Shown in pieces: positions 7,906-33,346 of a DNA stretch of 33,510 nt. The stretch is from assembly GCA_024642485.1 (NCBI GenBank), contig JAHEAY010000011.1, positions 1 through 33,510 on the forward strand, read 5' to 3'. A model generated the notes under the pieces. That model ran no database searches and was not told the origin of the DNA. It saw only the letters and a program-made list of their open reading frames with translations. A program made the position numbers and the translations under genes. Source of the stretch: Cytophagaceae bacterium. GTDB lineage: Bacteria; Bacteroidota; Bacteroidia; Cytophagales; Spirosomataceae. How positions within the stretch are numbered: position 1 is the stretch's first letter; each line of letters begins with the position of its first letter.

Positions 7906-8123
7906 AGACGCGAAGTATCGCGTCTCTACTATCGAAGGTCCAACGTCCAATGACCAACGTTCACAGTCTAAAGTCCAACGTCGATTAGACGCGAAGTATC
8001 GCGTCTCTACAATTGAAAGTCCAAAGTCCAAATTCCAATGTCCACAGTCTAAAGTCCAACGTAGATTAGACGCGAGGTATCGTAAATCTACAAGCCAGCG
8101 TCCAATGTCTAAAGTCCAAAGTC
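7906..8123. repeat. 81-bp higher-order tandem repeat (palindrome plus seven heptamers)
   Basis: Palindromes start at 7906, 7987 and 8068, exactly 81 bases apart. Each full unit is a 24-base palindromic element (arms AGACGCGA and TCGCGTCT, loop AGTA, tail CTAC), an 8-base spacer and seven heptamers of the GTCYAAN family (24+8+49=81). The third palindrome (8068-8091) is degenerate in its second arm, and its unit is cut short after four heptamers. Five heptamers of the same family precede the first unit (7871-7905). Confidence 0.9.
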
Positions 8124-18926: not shown

Positions 18927-19092
18927 AGCGAGGTTTCGCGTCTAGTCCTGTTTTGTAGAGACGCGATACTTCGAGTCTAGTCTGGAGTTCAATAATCAAG
19001 GGCATCGAATTTATTCAAGAAAAAAGACGCGAAGTATCGCGTCTCTACAAAATAGTCCAACGTCTAATAGACGCGAAGTATCGCGTCTCTAC
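18927..19092. repeat. four dispersed copies of the AGACGCGA/TCGCGTCT palindrome
   Basis: Copies lie at 18927-18943 (degenerate first arm), 18955-18978 (opposite orientation, loop TACT, one mismatch in the second arm), 19025-19048 and 19069-19092 (both perfect, loop AGTA, tail CTAC). The last two are 44 bases apart with two GTC-type heptamers between them. Arms of 8 GC-rich bases with a 4-base loop would form stable hairpins in RNA or single-stranded DNA. Confidence 0.88.
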
Positions 19093-27864: not shown

Positions 27865-28062
27865 ATAAAATGGGTGAATTTTGGGCTTGCAAGTTAAGAA
27901 ATTTCACAGGAAGGATGTAGATATTTTTTTTGCCCTGCATATTTTGGTAACGAAGCCTATAAAAATTGTAAATTTTCAAGTTTTGCCAAATAAAATAGCT
28001 GTCATTGTACTTAAATCCCAATTAATTTATCATTTTTGTTACAATGCACTAAAAATATTAGC

Positions 28063-31000
28063 ATGCCAAAATCATACGTTAAGAAAATCTCGAGTCTTCT
28101 CATCGCGAACCGCGGTGAAATTGCCATCCGTATCATGCGTGCCGCTTCTGAACTGGGAATCAGAACTGTTGCGGTTTACACCTTTGAGGATCGCTATTCT
28201 TTACACCGTTATAAAGCGGATGAGGCTTACCAAATTGGTAAGGACAATGAGCCATTAAAACCTTATTTGGATATCGAAGGACTGATTGCTTTGTGTAAGT
28301 CCAAAAAGATCGATGCCATACATCCAGGTTATGGATTCTTATCAGAAAATGTTGGTTTAGCGCGTCGATGCCGTGAAGAAGGCATCGTTTTCGTAGGTCC
28401 GTCTCCTGAAGCCATGAATGCATTAGGGGACAAAGTAGCTGCGAAAGTTGCTGCCTTGAAAGCAAATGTACCGATGATCCAAGATTCGAAAGGAGATATG
28501 TCGGTGTACGAAAATGCCTTATCCGAAGCTCGCCGTATCACATTCCCCGTGATGGTGAAAGCCGCAGCAGGTGGAGGTGGTCGTGGAATGCGTGTCGTTC
28601 GTACGGAAGAGGAATTAGAAAAAGCACATTCAGAAGCGAAAAATGAGGCAAAAAATGCCTTTGGTGATGATACATTGTTCATCGAGAAATTCATCGATGA
28701 TCCTAAGCATATTGAGGTTCAATTACTCGGTGACCAACACGGTAATTTGGTTCACCTTTACGAACGTGATTGTTCCGTACAACGCCGTTTTCAAAAGGTT
28801 GTAGAGGTAGCCCCTTCTTTTGGTTTAAAAGAAGAAACGAAGCAAAAATTATATGCGTACGCTTTGTCTATCGGTAAGGCGGTAAATTATTACAATGCGG
28901 GAACGGTTGAGTTCCTAGTGGATAAAGATGAAAATATCTATTTCATCGAAGTGAATCCGCGTATTCAAGTGGAACACACGATTACCGAAGAGGTAACAGG
29001 AATTGATATCGTGCGTACCCAAATCTTGGTTGCGCAAAATTATAAATTATCCGATCCGGGAATTTTCATCCAAAACCAGGAAGATATTCCATTGAAGGGT
29101 TTTGCGATTCAGTGTCGGATTACCACAGAAGATCCATCGAATGGCTTTAAGCCCGATTTTGGTACGATTATTGCTTACCGTAATGCTGCCGGATTTGGTA
29201 TTCGTTTGGATGAAGGATCATCGTATCCAGGGGTTAAGATTTCGCCTTATTTTGATTCAATGCTGGTAAAAGTTTCTGCCAAAGGTCGTACGCTACGTGG
29301 TGCTTCTGAGCGTTTGAACCGAGCATTGTCGGAGTTCCGTATTCGTGGGGTGAAAACTAATATTCCATTCTTGCGTAATGTGATCACGCATCCCGTGTTC
29401 CAAGAAGGAAATTGTACGGTTCCGTTTATCGCGAATCATCCAGAATTATTTAACATTAAGCCTACACGTGACCGTTCAACAAAAGCGTTGCGCTATTTGG
29501 GTGAGGTAATCGTAAATGGGAATCCTGACGTGAAAGTGAAGCCATCTGCTCCTTTCCGTACACCTATTATTCCTTCTGTGGATGAGTTTGCGGAATTCCC
29601 ACGTGGACACAAACAATTATTGACAGAATTAGGACCTGAGCGTTTCGCGAAACACATTCGCGATTCGAAACAAGTTTTATTTACGGACACAACTTTCCGC
29701 GATGGACACCAATCGCTCTTAGCGACACGTGTTCGTACACAAGATATGTTGGCCGTTGCTTCCGGCTTCGCTAAAACCTTCCCGAATTTATTCTCGATGG
29801 AGGTATGGGGTGGTGCAACTTTTGATGTGGCGATGCGATTCTTGCATGAATCTCCTTGGAAGCGTTTGGAAGAGTTTAGAGAGGCGATGCCAAACATGCT
29901 TTTACAGATGTTGTTCCGTGGTTCCAATGCCGTGGGGTATTCAGCTTATCCGGATAATTTGATTGAGAAGTTCGTAGAAAAATCATCCGAATCAGGGATC
30001 GATGTCTTCCGTATATTCGATTCCTTGAACTGGATCGATGCAATGAAAGTATCTATCAAAGCAGTTCGTGAGCGCACGCCAGGTATTGCTGAGGCTGCAA
30101 TTTGTTACACTGGTGATGTGTTTACAAATGAGAAGTACAACATGCAGTATTATTTGGATTTAGCTCGCCAACTAGAAGATGCGGGAGCGCACATGCTTGC
30201 CATTAAAGATATGGCTGGTTTGTTACGTCCATTCCAGGCAGAGAAATTGGTTACTGAATTGAAGAAAGCAGTTGCTATTCCGATTCACTTACATACGCAT
30301 GATACAGCTTCGGTTCAATCGGCTACCTATTTGAAGGCGATTGAGGCGGGTGTTGATGTGGTTGATGGGGCTTTGGCAGCGATGTCTGGCTTAACATCCC
30401 AACCGAATTTGAACTCCTTGGTAGCGATGATGCAAGGTCATCCTTATGATAGTGGATTGGATTTGGATGCCATGAATGATTATTCCAATTATTGGGAAGC
30501 GGTTCGTACGATGTACTTCCCATTTGAGTCGGAATTAAAAGCAGGAACAGCAGAGGTTTATAATAATGAGATTCCGGGTGGGCAATACACCAACTTACGT
30601 GGTCAGGCGATTGCCTTGGGCGTAGGGGATAAGTTTGAATTATTGAAGGACAATTATTCGGAAGCGAATAAGTTATTTGGTGATATTGTTAAGGTAACTC
30701 CATCTTCGAAAGTAGTAGGCGATATGGCCATTTTCATGACGGCAAATAGCTTGTCGGCAGAAGATGTATATGCCAAAGGTTCTACGTTATCTTTCCCAGA
30801 ATCTGTGAAGGATTTCTTCAAAGGAGGATTGGGTCAACCTTATCAAGGTTTTCCAAAGCAATTGCAAGAAATCATCTTAAAAGGAGAAACCGCTTACGAA
30901 GGACGTCCGAACGATAACTTAGCGCCGATTGATTTTGATAAGGATTATGCGGCATTTGTTGCGAAATTCCCTGACAATGAAGGAGGCTTCTTGGATTACT

Positions 31001-31923
31001 TGTCATACAAAATGTATCCAAAGGTTTACGAGGATTATTACAAAAATCAAGCCTTGTATGGTGATTTATCAGCGATGCCTACGCCAGCCTTTTTCTATGG
31101 CTTAAAGCAGGACGAGGAAATCATGATCACGATTGAGCCAGGTAAAACAATCATCGTGAAGTATTTGTATATGTCGGACCCTGATGAATCCGGCTTGCGT
31201 AACATTACGTTTGAATTGAATGGTCAAGCTCGCCGATTGAAAATCTTGGATAAGAATATCAAGGTTGAGCGTGCTCAACATGCCAAAGCGAAAGCCAAAG
31301 GCGATATTGGAGCCCCTTTGCAAGGTCGTTTGAGTCGTATATTGGTGAAACCAGGTGAGGAAGTGAAGAAAAACGCTCCATTGTATGTGATTGAGGCGAT
31401 GAAGATGGAGTCGATTGTTTCGGCGCCGTTTGAGGGGATTATTGGAAATGTAGTTTTGAATGAAGGTACGGTCGTGGAGCAAGAGGATTTGGTATTGACT
31501 TTGGAAGAAGCCAAATTGCCAGAACCTGATGTTGAGGAGTATTTATTCGTTTATGGAACTTTGCGTCGTGATTGTGGCAATGACTTACATCGTTTAATCG
31601 CACGTAACTCGGATTATGTGGGCATGGCGACTTATCAAGGCCAAATGTATCAAGTGGCAGATTATCCGGGAATTATTCCTTCGGAGGATGCCAAAGATCA
31701 GGTGGTAGGGGAGTTGTACTTGCTTTCAAACACGATCAAGTTGTTGAATGTCTTGGATGAATACGAGGAATTTGATCCAGAAAGCTCTGAGAAATCCTTA
31801 TTTGTGCGTGAACATGTGACGGTGAAATTAAAGGACAAGGAAATTACTTCATATGCATATCTTTACAATAAACCCGTTGATTCGAAGAAACGAATTGCTT
31901 CGGGGGATTATTTAAAAGGATAA
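28063..31923 (+). CDS. pyc: pyruvate carboxylase with C-terminal gamma-glutamylcyclotransferase/AIG2-like domain
   Basis: Biotin-dependent, ATP-driven carboxylation of pyruvate to oxaloacetate. Domains in order are biotin carboxylase (about 1-455; ATP-grasp KAAAGGGGRGMRVV, then EVNPRIQVEHTITEE), carboxyltransferase (about 530-800; LFTDTTFRDGHQSLLATRVRT), the allosteric/tetramerisation region and the biotin carrier (about 1085-1150) with K1114 in EAMKMES as the biotinylated lysine. The frame then continues through a short linker (LPEPD) into about 130 residues (1157-1286) that look like a complete AIG2/GGCT fold: YLFVYGTLRRDCGN, DYPGI, VVGELYLL and LDEYEEFDP. Ordinary single-chain pyruvate carboxylases stop near residue 1150. 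The frame is open to a TTG at 28036, but the ATG at 28063 gives the usual N-terminus. A phosphodiesterase gene follows after 4 bases. Confidence 0.95.
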   Translation: MPKSYVKKISSLLIANRGEIAIRIMRAASELGIRTVAVYTFEDRYSLHRYKADEAYQIGKDNEPLKPYLDIEGLIALCKSKKIDAIHPGYGFLSENVGLARRCREEGIVFVGPSPEAMNALGDKVAAKVAALKANVPMIQDSKGDMSVYENALSEARRITFPVMVKAAAGGGGRGMRVVRTEEELEKAHSEAKNEAKNAFGDDTLFIEKFIDDPKHIEVQLLGDQHGNLVHLYERDCSVQRRFQKVVEVAPSFGLKEETKQKLYAYALSIGKAVNYYNAGTVEFLVDKDENIYFIEVNPRIQVEHTITEEVTGIDIVRTQILVAQNYKLSDPGIFIQNQEDIPLKGFAIQCRITTEDPSNGFKPDFGTIIAYRNAAGFGIRLDEGSSYPGVKISPYFDSMLVKVSAKGRTLRGASERLNRALSEFRIRGVKTNIPFLRNVITHPVFQEGNCTVPFIANHPELFNIKPTRDRSTKALRYLGEVIVNGNPDVKVKPSAPFRTPIIPSVDEFAEFPRGHKQLLTELGPERFAKHIRDSKQVLFTDTTFRDGHQSLLATRVRTQDMLAVASGFAKTFPNLFSMEVWGGATFDVAMRFLHESPWKRLEEFREAMPNMLLQMLFRGSNAVGYSAYPDNLIEKFVEKSSESGIDVFRIFDSLNWIDAMKVSIKAVRERTPGIAEAAICYTGDVFTNEKYNMQYYLDLARQLEDAGAHMLAIKDMAGLLRPFQAEKLVTELKKAVAIPIHLHTHDTASVQSATYLKAIEAGVDVVDGALAAMSGLTSQPNLNSLVAMMQGHPYDSGLDLDAMNDYSNYWEAVRTMYFPFESELKAGTAEVYNNEIPGGQYTNLRGQAIALGVGDKFELLKDNYSEANKLFGDIVKVTPSSKVVGDMAIFMTANSLSAEDVYAKGSTLSFPESVKDFFKGGLGQPYQGFPKQLQEIILKGETAYEGRPNDNLAPIDFDKDYAAFVAKFPDNEGGFLDYLSYKMYPKVYEDYYKNQALYGDLSAMPTPAFFYGLKQDEEIMITIEPGKTIIVKYLYMSDPDESGLRNITFELNGQARRLKILDKNIKVERAQHAKAKAKGDIGAPLQGRLSRILVKPGEEVKKNAPLYVIEAMKMESIVSAPFEGIIGNVVLNEGTVVEQEDLVLTLEEAKLPEPDVEEYLFVYGTLRRDCGNDLHRLIARNSDYVGMATYQGQMYQVADYPGIIPSEDAKDQVVGELYLLSNTIKLLNVLDEYEEFDPESSEKSLFVREHVTVKLKDKEITSYAYLYNKPVDSKKRIASGDYLKG

Positions 31924-31927
31924 TTTT

Positions 31928-32674
31928 ATGAAAAAGCTGCTTTTGTTGTTGATGATTTCCAGTACAGTTTGGGGTCAAAATTTGTTGACAAAAGCACATG
32001 CACACAATGATTATGAACACGAGAGGCCTTTTTATGAGGCCTTTTCGTTGGGCTTTGGTTCCATTGAAGTGGATGTTTATGCGGTCAATGGCCAATTGTT
32101 GGTAGCCCATGATGTGAAGGATCTAAAAGCTTCACGGACCTTTCAAAATTTGTATTTGGATCCATTAGTTCAAGTTTTAAGTTCTGGAAAAGCGGGGAAT
32201 TTTCATCAATTATTAATTGATTCGAAAACTTCTGCGGATTCAACTATGCCGCTATTATTGAAGGCCATCGAGCCTTATAAAGACTTATTGCTCAAAAATA
32301 ATTTCCGAATTGTCATTTCGGGCAATCGGCCAGCCGTTTCGGATTATGTCAAATTCCCGAATTGGATTACGTTTGACGGTCGGTCGAATGAGGAAGTCCC
32401 TTCCTTTTTAGCATCCCATGTGGTTTTAGAAAGTGAGGCCTTTTACAAATTCGGCATTTGGAGTGGAACAACTCCGATGTCACCTACATTGCGGACTAAA
32501 TTGAAAAGCTATATCGACAAGGTGCATGCATCTGGCCGAAAAGTTCGTTTGTGGGCAACGCCGGAGGGATTGATGGCTTATCAGACTTTCTTGGATTTAG
32601 GCGTGGATTATATCGGGACTGATCAGTTGGTGGCTTTGGCGGAGTATTTGAAGGCAGCGCGAAGTGGGCAGTAA
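31928..32674 (+). CDS. secreted glycerophosphodiester phosphodiesterase / PI-PLC-like protein
   Basis: A 248-aa protein with a signal peptide (1-17, ending VWGQ). The TIM-barrel phosphodiesterase motifs follow: HAHNDYEH (24-31), the acidic pair in IEVDVY (E47, D49) and VAHD with H61. These match the two histidines and acidic residues of the GDPD/PI-PLC fold. It probably cleaves phosphodiesters such as glycerophosphodiesters in the periplasm; the exact substrate is unknown. It lies 4 bases after pyc. Its stop codon (TAA, 32672-32674) is inside the first unit of a heptamer array. Confidence 0.85.
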   Translation: MKKLLLLLMISSTVWGQNLLTKAHAHNDYEHERPFYEAFSLGFGSIEVDVYAVNGQLLVAHDVKDLKASRTFQNLYLDPLVQVLSSGKAGNFHQLLIDSKTSADSTMPLLLKAIEPYKDLLLKNNFRIVISGNRPAVSDYVKFPNWITFDGRSNEEVPSFLASHVVLESEAFYKFGIWSGTTPMSPTLRTKLKSYIDKVHASGRKVRLWATPEGLMAYQTFLDLGVDYIGTDQLVALAEYLKAARSGQ

Positions 32675-32696: not shown

Positions 32697-33346
32697 CTGT
32701 CGTCATGTGATCGACTGAAGTTTTCATCGTTTATGTAGAGACGCGATACCTCGCGTCTATTTTTGGTAGATTTTGAATGATACTTCTTCCGTTGACTTTA
32801 GTCTGGGGTAAATAATTCTATGTACAGACGCGATACCTCGCGTCTATTTTTGGTAGATTTTGAATGATATTTTTTCCATTGACTTTAGTCTTGGGTAAAT
32901 AATTCTATGTAGAGACGCGATACCTCGCGTCTATTTTTGGTAGATTTTGAATGATATTTTTTCCATTGACTTTAGTCTTGGGTAAATAATTCTATGTAGA
33001 GACGCGATACCTCGCGTCTATTTTTGGTAGATTTTGAATGATATTTTTTCCATTGACTTTAGTCTGGGGTAAATAATTCTATGTACAGACGCGATACCTC
33101 GCGTCTATTTTTGGTAGATTTTGAATGATATTTTTTCCATTGACTTTAGTCTAGGGGAATAAAAGTATTTAGGTTATTCGCCATAGTTCTCTTTTTTATC
33201 TCTGATTTTTTTTGTTGTTTTAGAGGTAAAACCTATTTAAACATCTAACGTCCAACGTCTAACGTCCAACGACTAATGTCTAACGTCCAATCTCTTACCT
33301 CTTAACTCTTACCTCTTAACTCTTAACTCTTAACTCTCACCTCTCT
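32675..33346. repeat. gene-free repeat region (672 bp)
   Basis: It contains the remainder of a CAGTAAT array, five 87-bp tandem repeats (32734-33168), an AT-rich stretch without recognisable features (33169-33242) and a 15-unit heptamer array (33243-33347) reaching the next gene. No protein-coding or RNA gene is seen. The promoter of the right-edge gene should lie in 33169-33242 or within the array, but no clear -7 element was found. Confidence 0.85.
32734..33168. repeat. five-copy 87-bp tandem repeat with terminator-like hairpins
   Basis: Units start at 32734, 32821, 32908, 32995 and 33082, exactly 87 bases apart, and are nearly identical; the first differs most in its middle part and the last at its end. 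Each begins with the palindrome arms AGACGCGA and TCGCGTCT (loop TACC) followed by ATTTTTGG, so on the plus strand each unit resembles a short intrinsic terminator. The remaining 60 bases are unique to this array and include GACTTTAGTC, which matches the heptamer family. Confidence 0.95.

Follow-up and report, generated by a model that had tools for sequence, protein, structure and literature searches.

The window analyzed here, the whole 33,510-nucleotide stretch of contig JAHEAY010000011.1 from a Cytophagaceae bacterium (assembly GCA_024642485.1), carries a gene in which pyruvate carboxylase (PYC) is fused to a gamma-glutamylcyclotransferase-like domain of the GGCT/AIG2 (GGACT) type. The fusion places an anaplerotic enzyme and a gamma-glutamyl enzyme in one chain, an arrangement conserved in every sampled member of the host genus that has the gene, and its carriers are a group of freshwater bacteria. 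From gene content, gene trees, and residue conservation, we think it probable that this is a two-enzyme chain that arose in one fusion, with the free cyclotransferase gene lost, and that its tail is likely a working cyclotransferase that forms 5-oxoproline.

One open reading frame, two enzyme folds

The reading frame is uninterrupted on the forward strand from either TTG at 28036 or ATG at 28066 to the stop codon at 31921 to 31923, and the ATG is the likelier start. Counted from this ATG, the fused gene (28066 to 31923) has 1285 codons and a product with a computed mass of 143.7 kDa, in line with the roughly 143 kDa given in a preliminary description of this DNA. The pyruvate carboxylase part (28066 to 31506, forward strand; residues 1 to 1147, 127.9 kDa) was identified with TIGR01235 and Pfam. 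TIGR01235 (NCBIfam, EC 6.4.1.1) matches residues 11 to 1147 of 1285 with 1617.8 bits against a cut-off of 1114.45, spanning profile positions 2 to 1143 of 1143. The Pfam families found in this part (PF00289, PF02786, PF02785, PF00682, PF02436, and PF00364) cover the biotin carboxylase, carboxyltransferase, PYC_OADA, and biotin carrier domains. The biotin-acceptor motif AMKME lies at 31396 to 31410 on the forward strand, its lysine (residue 1113) being encoded by AAG at 31402, and the other motifs that we take to be typical of pyruvate carboxylases are also in place.

The chain continues for 138 residues beyond the carboxylase end. A short, conserved linker of about 12 residues, EAKLPEPDVEEY (31507 to 31542, forward strand), leads from the biotin carrier into the GGCT/AIG2-like domain (GGACT, PF06094; 31543 to 31914, forward strand), which was assigned by Pfam and by a structure model with fold searches. 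PF06094, the sole Pfam family for the tail at E ≤ 0.01, matches residues 1160 to 1283 with 78 to 84 bits (cut-off 22.8) over profile positions 1 to 119 of 120; with this score and near-full coverage, the domain is complete and its match is far above chance. The VYGTL motif of the domain begins at 31549. The preliminary description had set the domain at 31531 to 31923, and it does lie there, but the Pfam limits are narrower. An Rfam scan of the whole window gave no match.

AlphaFold2 was run on the 213-residue segment of carrier, linker, and domain (mean pLDDT 66.7). The domain itself, about residues 83 to 213 of the segment, was modeled confidently, with blocks of ten residues at pLDDT 70 to 95; the carrier half stayed below 50, and we read the model for the domain only. 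The best structural match to the model is Bacillus subtilis YkqA (2qik; Z 15.5, 109 residues, 1.8 Å), and further matches include mouse GGACT (1vkb; Z 13.8, 121 residues, 2.4 Å), human GGACT with bound 5-oxoproline (Z 13.2, 119 residues, 2.4 Å), and the C domain of Kluyveromyces lactis allophanate hydrolase (Z 12.8, 116 residues, 2.4 Å). Foldseek returned the same families as the other structure search. Modeling the domain and comparing it with GGACT, as the preliminary description had advised, recovered a GGACT-type fold, and we assign the modeled tail to the GGACT/cyclotransferase fold. The central claim of that description, a pyruvate carboxylase joined to a complete GGCT/AIG2-like domain, is borne out by the profile scans, the confident domain model, the structural matches, and the many assemblies that share the join.

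The window's assembly is fragmented (238 contigs), and an in-frame TTG at 31516 falls within the linker; both could favor an artifact, in which a missed stop or frameshift joins two neighboring genes or an internal start translates the domain separately. We give this a negligible chance. A pattern scan of genome contigs found 42 loci, 39 of which (L029 to L067), named isolates included, are fused and stop-free from carrier to domain, with one (L066) cut by a contig end inside the domain. Because the same joined frame recurs in many independent assemblies, sequencing error or read-through is excluded for practical purposes. The domain had also been described as unlikely to be translated separately, for want of an in-frame ATG between the biotin motif and the domain. 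This absence holds, and the first in-frame Met past the motif is at 31624, inside the domain and behind its first strand. In-frame TTG codons do exist behind the biotin motif, which the argument from Met starts does not cover, but of 40 sequences just 16 have TTG at the linker position and 24 use a different Leu codon. With the TTG so poorly conserved, we reject it as an internal start.

Downstream, the next gene (31928 to 32674) starts 4 bases past the stop of the fused gene and gives only sub-threshold matches to glycerophosphodiester phosphodiesterase families. At 32732 to 33157, an 87-base non-coding unit is repeated in tandem 4.9 times (97% matches). All units contain the palindrome AGACGCGATACCTCGCGTCT, with near-copies of it at 7906 to 8006 and 18959 to 19088; the palindrome has 10 matches in the window at two mismatches or fewer, against a mean of 0 in shuffled sequences, and looks like a REP-like dispersed element. 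Two short arrays with 7- and 14-base units (AACGTCC/AACGTCT and CTCTTAA) at 33240 to 33344 lie directly ahead of the gene that follows.

Distribution and origin of the fusion

The domain was matched in 25 of the 39 genomes of a first sample; all 25 belong to the host genus, the window's own genome included, and all matches lie in stop-free open frames of at least 501 residues. A genus sample gave the carrier, linker, and domain in one stop-free frame in 37 of 38 genomes. The frames below 1288 residues are seven short ones (204 to 1092 residues), and the single genome with no match (G675) is 89% complete. The preliminary description had recommended a search for the joined architecture and had reasoned that genes always separate in relatives would point to a sequencing error; the search instead returned the same open frame across independent assemblies, isolates included, and the genus members just counted carry the genes joined. 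Named carriers, isolates among them, belong to Aquirufa, Sandaracinomonas, Arcicella, and Flectobacillus. NCBI places these genera and Pseudarcicella in the Flectobacillaceae; no locus named Pseudarcicella was among those found. The pattern scan also returned two relatives without a carboxylase, from Acidobacteriaceae (L068) and Hadesarchaea (L069) genome records, and an unfused carboxylase from Jiulongibacter (L070).

We then drew a family sample of 101 genomes evenly from the larger group. A protein search matched the domain in all 101, and the PF06094 profile did so in 97, while the C-terminal 235 residues of PYC were matched in 66 (E ≤ 1e-20). Among these 66, the carboxylase is fused in 24 genomes (8 genera) and unfused in 42, in frames of 1053 to 1192 residues. 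Each of the 24 fused genomes has a single PYC match and a single PF06094 match, and both are the fused protein; one (G089) has in addition a truncated domain remnant, which only the protein search, the more sensitive of the two, picked up. In the two fused genera sampled next best after the host genus, g16 (5/5) and g50 (6/6), every sampled genome is fused, and the two halves are split in none of the 24 fused family genomes or the 37 genus genomes. No other PYC-size frame with PF06094 was found in 241 genomes of the order (65 matched) or 345 of the phylum (87 matched), with one exception, a marginal PF06094 match in a 6170-residue frame of genome G489. For genomes outside the phylum, the sole evidence is the pattern scan, whose reach is close relatives.

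Several records deserve separate mention. The name 'Cellulophaga sp. BC115SP' (L061) is probably wrong, since the fused tail in that record is almost the same as in Flectobacillus longus (L059). In an Arcicella metagenome contig (L063, positions 1 to 900), what looks like a short tandem duplication breaks the pyc frame in its carboxyltransferase part and leaves the tail intact. Arcicella aurantiaca (L062, 6511 to 7347) has a 237-base copy of the 3' end of its fused gene, 94.5% identical and about 840 bases downstream of it. Two small ORFs lie in the interval, a layout that might reflect an inserted element that duplicated the tail. In the family sample, a pyc match (E ≤ 1e-20) is absent in 35 of 101 genomes, including members of genus g41.

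To place the fusion, we built quick trees with SH-aLRT support for each half. In the cyclotransferase tree (62 rows, without the contig-cut L066, L036, and most near-identical fused rows), the 22 fused sequences form one side of a branch with support 96. They are nested among the family's free genes, the nearest being those of genus g41 (support 84); no pyc match was found at E ≤ 1e-20 in the g41 genomes G064, G086, and G098. In the tree of the PYC segment (48 rows, 44 of them different, most near-identical fused rows being omitted), the 21 fused sequences likewise form one side of a branch, with support 99. Because the fused copies form one clade in both trees, one fusion event suffices, and a single event is the simplest reading of these sequences. 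Gene content and gene trees are observed, and from them we infer the direction of fusion and loss: the fusion would have occurred once, in a common ancestor of the Aquirufa, Sandaracinomonas, Arcicella, and Flectobacillus lineages, the fused domain deriving from the family's ordinary free-standing cyclotransferase gene, which would have been lost afterwards.

The preliminary description had also suggested that the domain was captured from a neighboring gene, and the sampled relatives do not support this. Where pyc is unfused (42 genomes), no frame that holds the domain exceeds 299 residues, and the two genes are far apart or on different contigs in all 42. The cyclotransferase is on another contig in 31, a comparison made by eye in which genes on different contigs may still be near each other at contig ends, and on the same contig in 11, where the distance always exceeds 700 kb (minimum 733 kb). 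Direct searches agree: the 40 stretches surrounding free cyclotransferase genes (up to 8.5 kb each) yielded no pyc, and no cyclotransferase was found within the 743 to 1500 bases covered downstream of pyc at 26 unfused loci in 24 genomes.

The surroundings of the free gene give a hint of where the domain came from. In 11 of the 40 stretches, the free cyclotransferase lies near genes that, from their sequences, we take to be ispG and an MmcQ/YjbR-like gene. Five MmcQ-like loci of fused genomes have an ispG edge and no cyclotransferase (L185, L186, L188, L189, and L192), and five others have neither (L191, L193, L195, L196, and L197). Among unfused genomes, MmcQ-like loci without the free gene have ispG in two cases (L187 and L194) and lack it in one (L190). 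These loci are mixed in fused and unfused genomes alike; they suggest that the fused genomes may have a vacated site of origin near ispG and the MmcQ-like gene.

Constraint on the tail and its possible role

The fused domain appears to be well maintained. Among 29 sequences of the Aquirufa/Sandaracinomonas group, median dN/dS is 0.061 for the domain, 0.033 for the linker (12 codons), and 0.016 for the PYC part, these medians being taken from the 75, 80, and 69 of 406 pairs, respectively, within 0.1<dS<1.5 (331, 326, and 337 pairs fall outside), with synonymous sites mostly near saturation (median pS 0.77 to 0.84 over all pairs). These ratios indicate strong purifying selection on the tail domain. 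In an alignment of 30 rows, mean column identity is 0.91 for the carrier, 0.87 for the linker, and 0.66 for the domain, and the LPEP of the linker shows no substitution in these 30 rows or in the additional fused rows listed. The higher conservation of the linker, compared with the domain it carries, argues mildly for a defined arrangement of the two halves, not a loose string.

Twelve columns of the domain (Y7, G8, L10, G36, P45, G59, D75, Y77, E78, R92, Y109, and G124), among them those of the YGxL loop and of D-x-YE, do not vary in any of the 36 aligned rows, which comprise 9 fused and 27 of 40 fetched free sequences; the other 13 free sequences also have the YE, as judged by eye. E78 of the alignment is Glu1234 of the chain, encoded by GAG at 31765 to 31767 (forward strand) within LDEYEE, and it pairs with the Glu in the LDDFE of human GGACT. 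Counted along the printed alignment, this is E82, the residue replaced in the E82Q mutant (entry 3jud), and the LDEYE glutamate region is complete, as the preliminary description had it. Judged by the conserved residues and the fold, the tail would most likely take the place of the free enzyme and split 5-oxoproline off a gamma-glutamyl amide, with Glu1234 as the putative general acid/base. In the printed alignments, the two best PDB sequence matches of the tail, Escherichia coli YtfP and YkqA (first domain), lack the Glu at this column, so some proteins with this fold may not be GGACT-type cyclotransferases.

Could the tail instead be a structural or regulatory module, which binds a gamma-glutamyl compound or 5-oxoproline and tunes the carboxylase without turnover? 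Pyruvate carboxylases are widely allosteric, and the identical LPEP and the high identity of the linker relative to the domain suggest a fixed arrangement. However, the free-standing enzymes share the putative catalytic Glu and the rest of the invariant columns, and none of the 24 fused genomes has a PF06094 match outside the fused copy. With the residues of the free enzyme kept and the sole copy fused, the original activity is probably still needed, and we regard a purely regulatory tail as unlikely.

It is tempting to look for a metabolic reason for the join. In the reading that we prefer, a linker of about 12 residues connects a complete single-chain pyruvate carboxylase to what would be a complete AIG2/GGACT-type gamma-glutamyl cyclotransferase on its C-terminal side; the carboxylase half would yield oxaloacetate as usual, and the most economical reason for the join would be shared, stoichiometric production of the two. 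Metabolic coupling of the two halves is possible, and we searched for partner genes in 22 genomes, 13 of them fused. The PxpB-type family PF02682 is present in 8 of the 22 genomes and 2 of the 13 fused, and the hydantoinase/5-oxoprolinase-type family PF05378, which also holds hydantoinases, in 11 and 7. Neither was found in the fused genomes G000, G005, G067, and G047. Gamma-glutamyltransferase (PF01019) is present in 21 of 22 genomes (12 of 13 fused) and, being so general, says little about a metabolic link. These three gene families provide no consistent metabolic partner. A link through 5-oxoproline is unsupported, with disposal genes patchy in the fused genomes, and we count this patchiness against our preferred explanation.

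The lack of a consistent partner also lends weight to a reading in which the domain is a passenger: after a rearrangement had put it on pyc, the free gene disappeared, and joining the halves does nothing more than keep both expressed. This overlaps with the preferred explanation and differs solely in denying that the tether brings a benefit. It fits the sufficiency of one fusion event, the single match for each half in every fused genome, and the lack of a cyclotransferase gene adjoining pyc in the sampled relatives. Against it stand the strong conservation of the linker and the fact that the halves have never been split in the fused genomes sampled. In all, we consider a passenger a real but less probable account, and a two-enzyme chain with a working tail the better one.

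A bolder proposal is that the tail acts on its own carboxylase, removing gamma-glutamyl groups from lysines, for example a mis-modified biotin acceptor, or that it couples gamma-glutamyl turnover to oxaloacetate supply. The bond cleaved by GGACT is an isopeptide on the epsilon-amine of lysine; the LPEP linker would hold the tail by the biotin carrier, and the gamma-glutamyl groups would leave as 5-oxoproline. If true, a biotin enzyme would carry its own repair or control domain, but we hold this to be very improbable.

Relation to known systems

No description of a PYC-cyclotransferase fusion was found in the literature searched (top matches, with subscription journals thinly covered). The fusion is a combination of two known families, and there is no evidence yet of a new principle. 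To our knowledge, the function of bacterial AIG2-like proteins is largely unassigned; because the partner enzyme is known here, the fusion makes their role testable. The effect of the tail domain on the movement of the mobile biotin carrier becomes testable as well.

The carboxylase part resembles the single-chain pyruvate carboxylases (TIGR01235) in all its domains, in its full-length profile match, and in the AMKME motif. The known family, however, stops at the biotin carrier, and the unfused PYC rows (27, from 24 genomes) end 0 to 10 residues past the query segment, whereas the fused chain goes on into a second enzyme fold. The tail resembles GGACT/AIG2-like enzymes in fold (Z 11.4 to 15.5) and in the YG(T/S)L motif, and shares the catalytic Glu with GGACT; the structures compared were human (3jub, 3juc, and 3jud) and mouse (1vkb) GGACT, YkqA (2qik), and YtfP (1xhs). 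All of these are free-standing proteins, YkqA being longer (285 residues), whereas the fused domain sits at the end of a biotin-dependent enzyme.

A parallel in architecture is urea amidolyase. The C domain of allophanate hydrolase (K. lactis; 4iss, 4ist) has the same fold as the tail (4iss residues 481 to 609) at 13% identity, and in urea amidolyase, according to a published account (PMC5770610), a single protein holds both a biotin-dependent carboxylase and allophanate hydrolase, the latter comprising an N and a C domain. The carboxylase of urea amidolyase is a different one, and the N and C domains take its own product, allophanate, stepwise to ammonium, whereas pyruvate carboxylase has no evident product relation to the tail domain. 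The fused gene nonetheless provides a second case, beside urea amidolyase, of a GGACT-type fold in one protein with a biotin-dependent carboxylase.
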